From Calothrix rhizosoleniae SC01 (lineage in GTDB: Bacteria; Cyanobacteriota; Cyanobacteriia; Cyanobacteriales; Nostocaceae), in contig NZ_FYBH01000130.1 of assembly GCF_900185595.1 (NCBI RefSeq), positions 1 to 50,686 on the forward strand: DNA of 50,686 bases. The letters run 5' to 3'. A program made the translations under genes and the position numbers. The notes below the pieces were generated by a model. That model was not told the DNA's origin. It saw only the letters and a list, made by a program, of their open reading frames with translations, and ran no database searches. Each line of letters opens with the position of its first letter. The first letter of the stretch is position 1. Of the stretch, positions 44,494 through 45,781 are shown piece by piece.

Positions 44494-44880
44494 CTAAGAA
44501 CGCAGTTGTGCTATCATGGCAGCAGGACTCCAGTAAGCGCGGGTGGTTTGAATTTTACCCTCGTCGTTGATTTCAAATATGGTAATCCCTGCAAATGTTA
44601 CAGATTTACCAGTTTTGCTAATACCTTGCATTTCCCATTTAACTGCAGCTTCATTACCAGCAATAAATACATGTTCGATGTTGGATTCTAACTTTTCATA
44701 GGTGGCTTGCAGAAGTCCGATGAAATCTCGAAATCCTTCATGGATTTTTGTCGGTGGTTCGCCCACAGGATCATAGCTGATAGCATCTACGGCAAAGTTT
44801 TTCACCCACCCTTCTGGATTCATGGCGGACACATTCGCAAAGTATGATTCAATAATATTAGCGATCGCTTCTTCTGTCAT
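44494..44880 (-). CDS. SnoaL-like / NTF2-fold protein
   Basis: 128 residues of the SnoaL/ketosteroid-isomerase-like NTF2 superfamily: IANIIESYFANVSAMNPEGW, DAISYDPVGEPPTKIHEGFR, VKWEMQGISKTGKSVTFAGI, FEINDEGKIQTTRAYWSPAA. The fold forms a small pocket used for isomerisation, hydration or just binding; no specific activity can be read. It starts 49 bp after the stop of the PhyH-type gene on the same strand, so they may form a unit. Confidence 0.88.
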   Translation of the reverse strand: MTEEAIANIIESYFANVSAMNPEGWVKNFAVDAISYDPVGEPPTKIHEGFRDFIGLLQATYEKLESNIEHVFIAGNEAAVKWEMQGISKTGKSVTFAGITIFEINDEGKIQTTRAYWSPAAMIAQLRS

Positions 44881-44929: not shown

Positions 44930-45781
44930 TTAGCGAAATCTCTGAACAATGGATTTTATTTTTGTTTTCAATCCACGATCTATTTTATTACCCCCTAGCC
45001 TATTTGCTGCGTTAATATACTGTTGCTTCTGTTCTTCTTGTTCTTGCCAACGGTCAAATTGGGGATGGTAAACTTCGTTAAAAAAGCGTTGATGTTCGGG
45101 GGTTAGTCCCTCAATTACCTCTGGTGCAAAGCTCGGTTTGTGATGGCGGACATTGATATGGTTATAGGCGCAGAAAATTGCAATTCGGGGGTTATGGGGA
45201 TTATTCCAAAAGTCGGCGGAATGGCGCACAGCTTCGGAAAACACTACTAAGGAGCCGGGAGGACAGCTATAACTCTCCCAAATACCAGAATCCTTGGCAT
45301 CCAGGCTAGTTTCAGTGGAGTTGCGAATATTGTAATTAGCTTTATGGCTACCAGAGATGAAACAGGTTCCGCCTTTTCCTTCTAATACCTCACCCAATTC
45401 CCAAACCACCCTAGTCATACCAGCATAAATACGTCCGTCATGGAAATTGTATGCATAGTTGGGGTTAGTAGTGCGTCTCCCTGCATGGGGCCTCCATTCA
45501 CCTTCTCCCTGTTGACGATAGCTGAGAAAAGTACTTTCTAAGCGTATCCTTTCTGTTTTGCTATCAATTACATCGTGCAACACATCCATAACTGCTGGAT
45601 GATCGATGAACCTTTCAAAAGCACCCCCCGGTAAGGAACGCTGGTGGGGAGGTAAGGAATCTGGCTCATGCTTTTGGCGGAGAACAAATTCTTTTAGTTC
45701 CTCAACCTCACCTTGTGAAAGAACACCAGGCTTGACAATGTAACCTTTGAGATCAAAAATAATGCGATCGCGTTGGTTCAC
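44930..45781 (-). CDS. Phytanoyl-CoA dioxygenase-family protein with H-x-G motif
   Basis: 283 residues, GTG start at 45781. Fold and family: FLSYRQQGEGEWRPHAGRRT, YNFHDGRIYAGMTRVVWELG, KGGTCFISGSHKANY and GSLVVFSEAVRHSADF. By spacing, the iron site is H99 and distal H187 (88 apart, as in human PhyH), with R199 (NPRIAIF) for 2-oxoglutarate. The third ligand, Asp in H-x-D, is Gly101 here (H99-A100-G101). In Fe/2OG halogenases the same carboxylate is replaced by Ala or Gly to leave room for halide. The same HxG text may be a property of a wider PhyH subfamily, so activity is open. SnoaL-like gene follows. Confidence 0.85.
   Translation of the reverse strand: MNQRDRIIFDLKGYIVKPGVLSQGEVEELKEFVLRQKHEPDSLPPHQRSLPGGAFERFIDHPAVMDVLHDVIDSKTERIRLESTFLSYRQQGEGEWRPHAGRRTTNPNYAYNFHDGRIYAGMTRVVWELGEVLEGKGGTCFISGSHKANYNIRNSTETSLDAKDSGIWESYSCPPGSLVVFSEAVRHSADFWNNPHNPRIAIFCAYNHINVRHHKPSFAPEVIEGLTPEHQRFFNEVYHPQFDRWQEQEEQKQQYINAANRLGGNKIDRGLKTKIKSIVQRFR

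Follow-up and report, generated by a model that had tools for sequence, protein, structure and literature searches.

The window analysed here, a stretch of 50,686 nucleotides from Calothrix rhizosoleniae SC01 (contig NZ_FYBH01000130.1), carries on its minus strand, at positions 44930 to 45781, a gene for a 283-residue protein of the PhyH superfamily (PF05721) of 2-oxoglutarate (2OG)/Fe(II) oxygenases. By its sequence this protein falls into a HygX-like clade in which the usual H-x-D/E metal motif has become H-x-G. We consider it probable that the protein is a HygX-like Fe(II)/2OG oxygenase with iron bound by two histidines and the site completed by a glutamate (E183), which would carry out hydroxylation or ring closure and no chlorination. 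This reading draws on what we observed of the sequence, homology and conservation of the protein, of the pattern of an acid four residues before the distal histidine (position -4), and of purifying selection on the gene.

An intact PhyH gene with glycine at the carboxylate position

The reading frame is intact over all 283 residues and opens with a GTG codon, with a ribosome-binding-like sequence (AGGGGGAA) just upstream; no long frame was found on the opposite (plus) strand of 44930-45781. In a Pfam search PhyH was the only family matched, with a score of 28.7 bits that lies just above the cut-off of 22. The original prediction had pointed to H99-A100-G101 in place of H-x-D and to H187 at a distance of 88 residues from H99 (187-99 = 88), and both features were recovered, with the H-A-G codons at 45479-45487 (minus strand) and that of H187 at 45221-45223. 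On the evidence of the sequence and of alignment with the orthologues, EctD and HygX, the first motif comprises the proximal metal His followed by Gly at the position usually held by Asp, and the canonical H-x-D/E carboxylate ligand of the superfamily is absent. That H99 lies at the metal site, on which the original prediction depended, is supported by alignments that place it opposite H102 of HygX and the metal-binding His of EctD. In the PhyH alignment the second motif, E183-A-V-R-H187 (45221..45235, minus strand), comprises the distal metal His and the acid at -4, and R199 (45185..45187, minus strand), the Arg predicted to bind the C5 carboxylate of 2OG, is invariant in 120 of 120 aligned PhyH proteins.

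Some 85,000 species were scanned for relatives, and 14 came up, nearly all at 69-87% identity: 13 from cyanobacteria (Calothrix, Hyella, Pleurocapsa, Xenococcus, Richelia and kin) and one from an Armatimonadota MAG. The orthologue alignment was made up of the window protein and 13 of these relatives (12 cyanobacterial, 1 Armatimonadota), the Richelia sequence being omitted as it is cut off near a contig end. H99, A100, G101, D115, E183, H187 and R199 did not vary in any of the 14 sequences aligned, and H-A-G was thus kept in all 13 comparable orthologues. An AF2 model made from the alignment of the 14 close orthologues had a pLDDT of 47 and a pTM of 0.35, too low for it to be of use. Comparison of the window gene with its two nearest Calothrix orthologues, both from MAGs, gave a dN/dS of ~0.13; the gene is real and, on this ratio, under purifying selection, and its glycine is therefore no recent lesion.

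Loss of the carboxylate is accompanied by an acid at position -4

The 120 PhyH proteins that we aligned comprised the window protein with its orthologues and HygX, further relatives drawn from the same phylum as the Armatimonadota MAG, and a set of canonical PhyH proteins. Glu or Asp preceded the distal His by exactly four residues in 75 of the 76 proteins without the carboxylate versus 1 of the 44 H-x-D/E proteins, and in 18 of 19 versus 1 of 24 when one representative was kept per 50%-identity cluster, counts that do not measure independent events. Of these 75 acids 66 were Glu and 9 were Asp, while the former carboxylate position was occupied by Gly (65), Pro (8) or Val (2). The residue at +2 of the proximal His therefore drifts between G, P and V, whereas the -4 acid, E183 in the window protein, was never lost in the clade and changed only from Glu to Asp in the HSG group. 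Two other acidic columns, those of E82 and E131, held an acid in only 67 of the 75 proteins, as opposed to 75 of 75 for the E183 column. Glu at -4 was seen together with HVV in L104 and with HGP in L088, L094, L096, L097, L099, L100, L102 and L103.

When the two motifs were left out of the alignment, the resulting tree grouped most carboxylate-less proteins, with four label changes, two of them forced by starred branches. The association between the -4 acid and carboxylate loss came down to only two independent pairs, which is not significant by a sign test, and the correlation goes back to a single ancient event or a small number of them. Among plasmid relatives, a Cupriavidus protein (L149) combined H-H-G with Glu at -4, and two Streptomyces H-x-D proteins were without the -4 acid. 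A further protein, encoded by pBB1 of Cupriavidus necator (L147), pairs a proximal H-H-E with a -4 Glu, and is possibly an intermediate or a reversion. Because it keeps the -4 Glu yet has H-H-E, the acid cannot be regarded strictly as a replacement for the carboxylate.

HygX is the nearest relative of solved structure

The only significant match of the window protein among solved structures was HygX (entries 4XC9, 4XCA, 4XCB and 4ZPI), at 1.6e-9 for the single protein (phmmer) and 4.8e-7 for the profile, with an identity to the window protein of only 22%. HygX was also matched, at 1.2e-20, by a profile built from the HGG sister group, its H102-G103-G104 aligning to the H-G-G of that group and its H206 to the distal His. 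HygX resembles the window protein in its PhyH fold family, in the replacement of H-x-D by H-G-G and in the Glu four positions ahead of the distal His (E202 in HygX), and both proteins have the 2OG Arg, the F-D-x-x-G start, the DG motif, and the GSHKAN and E-A-x-x-H motifs. They differ in an insertion of roughly 10 residues after HGG in HygX, and in their genetic context, in that HygX acts in an aminoglycoside cluster whereas the window gene is without a conserved pathway partner and has an M48 peptidase, a ZnuA-like protein and a SnoaL protein as neighbours. On a plasmid of Streptomyces sp. SAT1 the HygX gene, which reads HGG...NEALMH, lies near that for the hygromycin phosphotransferase APH(7''). 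The substrates of HygX and of the window protein surely differ.

HygX structures were reportedly described in 2015 by McCulloch et al. in the context of hygromycin B biosynthesis, and the abstract of that work is said to mention variation in the metal coordination of HygX and its crystallisation with 2OG and product. HygX, AviO1, EvdO1 and EvdO2 are nonheme iron, 2OG-dependent oxygenases that have been tied to orthoester formation (PMC8234114).

With its H-A-G and E183, the window protein has the H-x-G (or H-x-P) and -4 acid of the HygX-like clade, and HygX is its best solved relative; it belongs to a conserved HygX-like clade. Carboxylate loss is common to this whole clade, which is large, carries H-x-G (or H-G-P), and includes HygX. 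Because the loss extends over so large a subclade, the missing carboxylate marks a subgroup of PhyH proteins and is no bar to membership of the superfamily. This agrees with a caution voiced in the original prediction, namely that H-x-G may be typical of a conserved PhyH subfamily: HAG was found in 14 of 14 close sequences, and H-x-G in a wider clade around them. To the same clade belong uncharacterised PhyH paralogues with HGG from cyanobacteria and from Armatimonadota (L016, L020, L021, L058-L075), likewise with H-x-G and Glu at -4. Those from cyanobacteria are about 25-31% identical to the window protein, and have TEALTHGT where the latter has SEAVRHSA. H-x-G-type PhyH genes are greatly expanded, with up to 15 profile matches per genome, in the phylum of the Armatimonadota MAG (G387, G395, G534, G539 and others).

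A parallel in human AspH and a proposed mechanism

H-x-G is also found in human AspH (aspartate/asparagine beta-hydroxylase, PF05118), which has no more than two His ligands, H679 and H725 (PMC8252765). In AspH structures the place of the carboxylate is taken by a water molecule, W1, which D721 holds; this residue precedes H725 by exactly four positions. Activity drops substantially in the D721A variant, and AspH is no halogenase, apparently since halides fail to displace W1 (PMC13168262). The same layout of two His, H-x-G and an acid at -4 is present in the window sequence, and it is from this correspondence of positions that we infer a link between the two proteins. AspH differs from the window protein in that it belongs to another family (no Pfam match to PF05118 was found for the window protein), acts on a protein substrate, possesses a TPR domain, and has Asp and not Glu at -4.

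As the window protein has the AspH layout with Glu, we propose that E183 may hold a metal-bound water or bind the metal. For the HygX-like oxygenase that we favour, we suggest the following metal geometry, use of 2OG and type of reaction. Iron would be held by two histidines, H99 and H187, and the site emptied by the Asp-to-Gly change would be completed by E183, most likely via an iron-bound water as with D721 in AspH, direct iron binding by E183 being the less likely variant. R199 would anchor 2OG. Reaction with O2 would give a ferryl species that abstracts hydrogen from a small-molecule substrate, and the outcome would be hydroxylation of the substrate or its oxidative cyclisation, of the kind proposed for HygX, and not chlorination.

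The occurrence of the same layout in human AspH suggests that evolution reached the -4 acid solution twice, and the acid is a possible simple discriminator between H-x-G oxygenases and true halogenases. Somewhat on the doubtful side is the generalisation that the HygX-like clade, beside AspH, represents a second independent case of H-x-D loss with an acid at -4, possibly as a direct ligand, and that a one-residue rule sets radical halogenases apart.

Alternative explanations

The alternative closest to the above mechanism is that E183 binds iron directly, so that a relocated facial triad would consist of E-x3-H and the proximal His. Such a role would fit with the presence of the acid in every H-x-G-type member sampled except the CurA-type halogenase described below (Glu 66 and Asp 9 of 75), and with a +2 position that is now free to vary. 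However, the equivalent residue of AspH is second-sphere and works through water, and we consider direct ligation by E183 rather unlikely.

A degenerate, non-catalytic PhyH protein with a binding or regulatory role might be expected to have an incomplete canonical triad and a patchy distribution, and the window protein shows both, its gene being intact only in its own genome among 386 sampled cyanobacterial genomes. Yet neither the two His residues nor the 2OG Arg nor the -4 acid varies in any orthologue or anywhere in the clade, and a dN/dS of about 0.13 also speaks against decay, which makes loss of catalysis very unlikely. HygX, moreover, was reportedly crystallised with 2OG and product.

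The original prediction had proposed either a halogenase or a protein with a changed iron site, of which the second was upheld. Radical halogenases such as SyrB2, CytC3 and WelO5 hold chloride where the carboxylate would be and transfer it to a substrate radical, and H-x-G, as present in the window protein, is an accepted signature of such enzymes (PMC12871659, PMC2767507). Nevertheless, H-x-A/G alone gives false positives (PMC12871659), and the D414A and D414G variants of a prolyl 4-hydroxylase lose hydroxylation and gain no halogenation (PMC2767507). AspH, with its H-x-G and -4 acid, is likewise a hydroxylase that does not halogenate. The window protein showed no significant similarity to solved halogenases, and none was found among the solved-structure matches of the protein or of its profile; its nearest solved relative is an oxygenase, HygX. 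Furthermore, some members of the clade have Pro or Val in place of the Gly, which is unexpected if the gap must hold chloride, and no biosynthetic cluster or carrier protein adjoins the window gene.

The -4 position points in the same direction. The CurA halogenase domain, the biotin halogenase BtnX and CytC3 are like the window protein in belonging to the PhyH superfamily and in having Gly or Ala for the carboxylate, but they have no acid at -4 and no detectable close relationship to it. CurA and BtnX read H-V-G and N-K-Y-V-x-H, with Lys at -4, and CytC3, which has H-Q-A, has Ser. Absence of the acid is a halogenase pattern that we derived from these three enzymes, and the window protein departs from it through E183. 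The sole carboxylate-less protein without the -4 acid in our alignment (1 of 76), L048, is a CurA-type halogenase homologue, which matched the CurA halogenase domain (3NNF) at 2.4e-170 and BtnX at 3.6e-29, has the same H-V-G and N-K-Y-V-x-H motifs, and is itself a real halogenase candidate. It is encoded (L048, 1465-2598) in the Calothrix sp. MO_192.B10 MAG (G386), the genome that also contains the nearest orthologue of the window gene. Ser231 of SyrB2, at -4 of H235, may line the chloride pocket, and was not used as evidence here. Taken with the HygX relationship, these data make halogenation by the window protein highly improbable.

Annotation pipelines read H-x-G/A as a halogenase mark, and here the mark misleads, because most H-x-G PhyH proteins sampled carry the compensating acid and belong with HygX. 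If the one-residue rule holds, a set of H-x-G oxygenases much larger than that of the true halogenases is now at risk of the halogenase label. For the window gene itself the outcome is deflationary: one more uncharacterised oxygenase.

The idea, also part of the original prediction, that D115 of HDG (45437..45439, minus strand) swings in as the carboxylate ligand is scarcely credible, for although this residue is invariant in the 14 close orthologues and HygX also has HDG, the position is unconserved in the clade, being Asp in about a third of the carboxylate-less proteins and otherwise Asn, Gly, Glu, Arg, Pro, Gln or another residue, and the EctD Asp that aligns with it (EDG) is not among the metal ligands of EctD.

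Gene neighbourhood and distribution

The minus-strand gene order in the window is M48 peptidase, ZnuA/MntC-like binding protein, PhyH, SnoaL-like protein and unknown protein, separated in that order by 28, 72, 49 and 6 bases. The SnoaL-like gene that had been noted beside the PhyH gene is indeed there (44494-44880), but the idea that the two share a pathway found no support in the neighbourhoods, as a SnoaL orthologue lies near PhyH only in L003, at 1.9 kb downstream; in L002 the contig ends shortly after PhyH. Adjacency of the ZnuA and PhyH genes is kept in two Calothrix MAGs, and a ZnuA relative is also found on the Richelia contig. Near the Pleurocapsales orthologues there was no SnoaL orthologue; their neighbours are unrelated genes, which include none of those in the window and none common to each other beyond near-identical strains. 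A different SnoaL-like gene on the opposite strand beside L004 was taken as coincidence. In the Armatimonadota MAG (L011) the PhyH gene is flanked by a sulfatase gene on one side and a gene for a short-chain dehydrogenase on the other, and an NAD-dependent epimerase is encoded further along. No conserved pathway partner for the PhyH gene was identifiable among the orthologue neighbourhoods.

An intact HAG copy was present in 1 of the 386 sampled cyanobacterial genomes, that of the window, which has this one copy plus two other PhyH proteins; the HAG subfamily is rare among cyanobacteria. The remaining matched genomes of this sample contain sister genes with H-G-G-G, or broken copies thereof, and in two cyanobacteria (L017 in G011, L018 in G019) stop codons break HGG-type PhyH genes. 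Another cyanobacterium (G070) retains a 29-residue remnant of a HAG gene (L025, 1501-1578), the gene having been lost there. No relatives were found in viral_contigs (two scans) or in phages. The Armatimonadota copy (L011) is 75% identical to the cyanobacterial gene, which suggests phylum-to-phylum transfer or a mis-binned contig.

The window protein ends in a 38-residue tail (44933..45046, minus strand) that is rich in glutamine and charged residues, basic near its end, and common only to the orthologues from Calothrix MAGs; in all of these it finishes in a basic, helix-like stretch. The Pleurocapsales orthologues (L004, L006-L010, L012, L013) have an in-frame, lysine-rich (basic) extension at the N-terminus. 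A basic tail seems to be found at opposite ends of the protein in the two lineages, C-terminal in Calothrix and N-terminal in Pleurocapsales.
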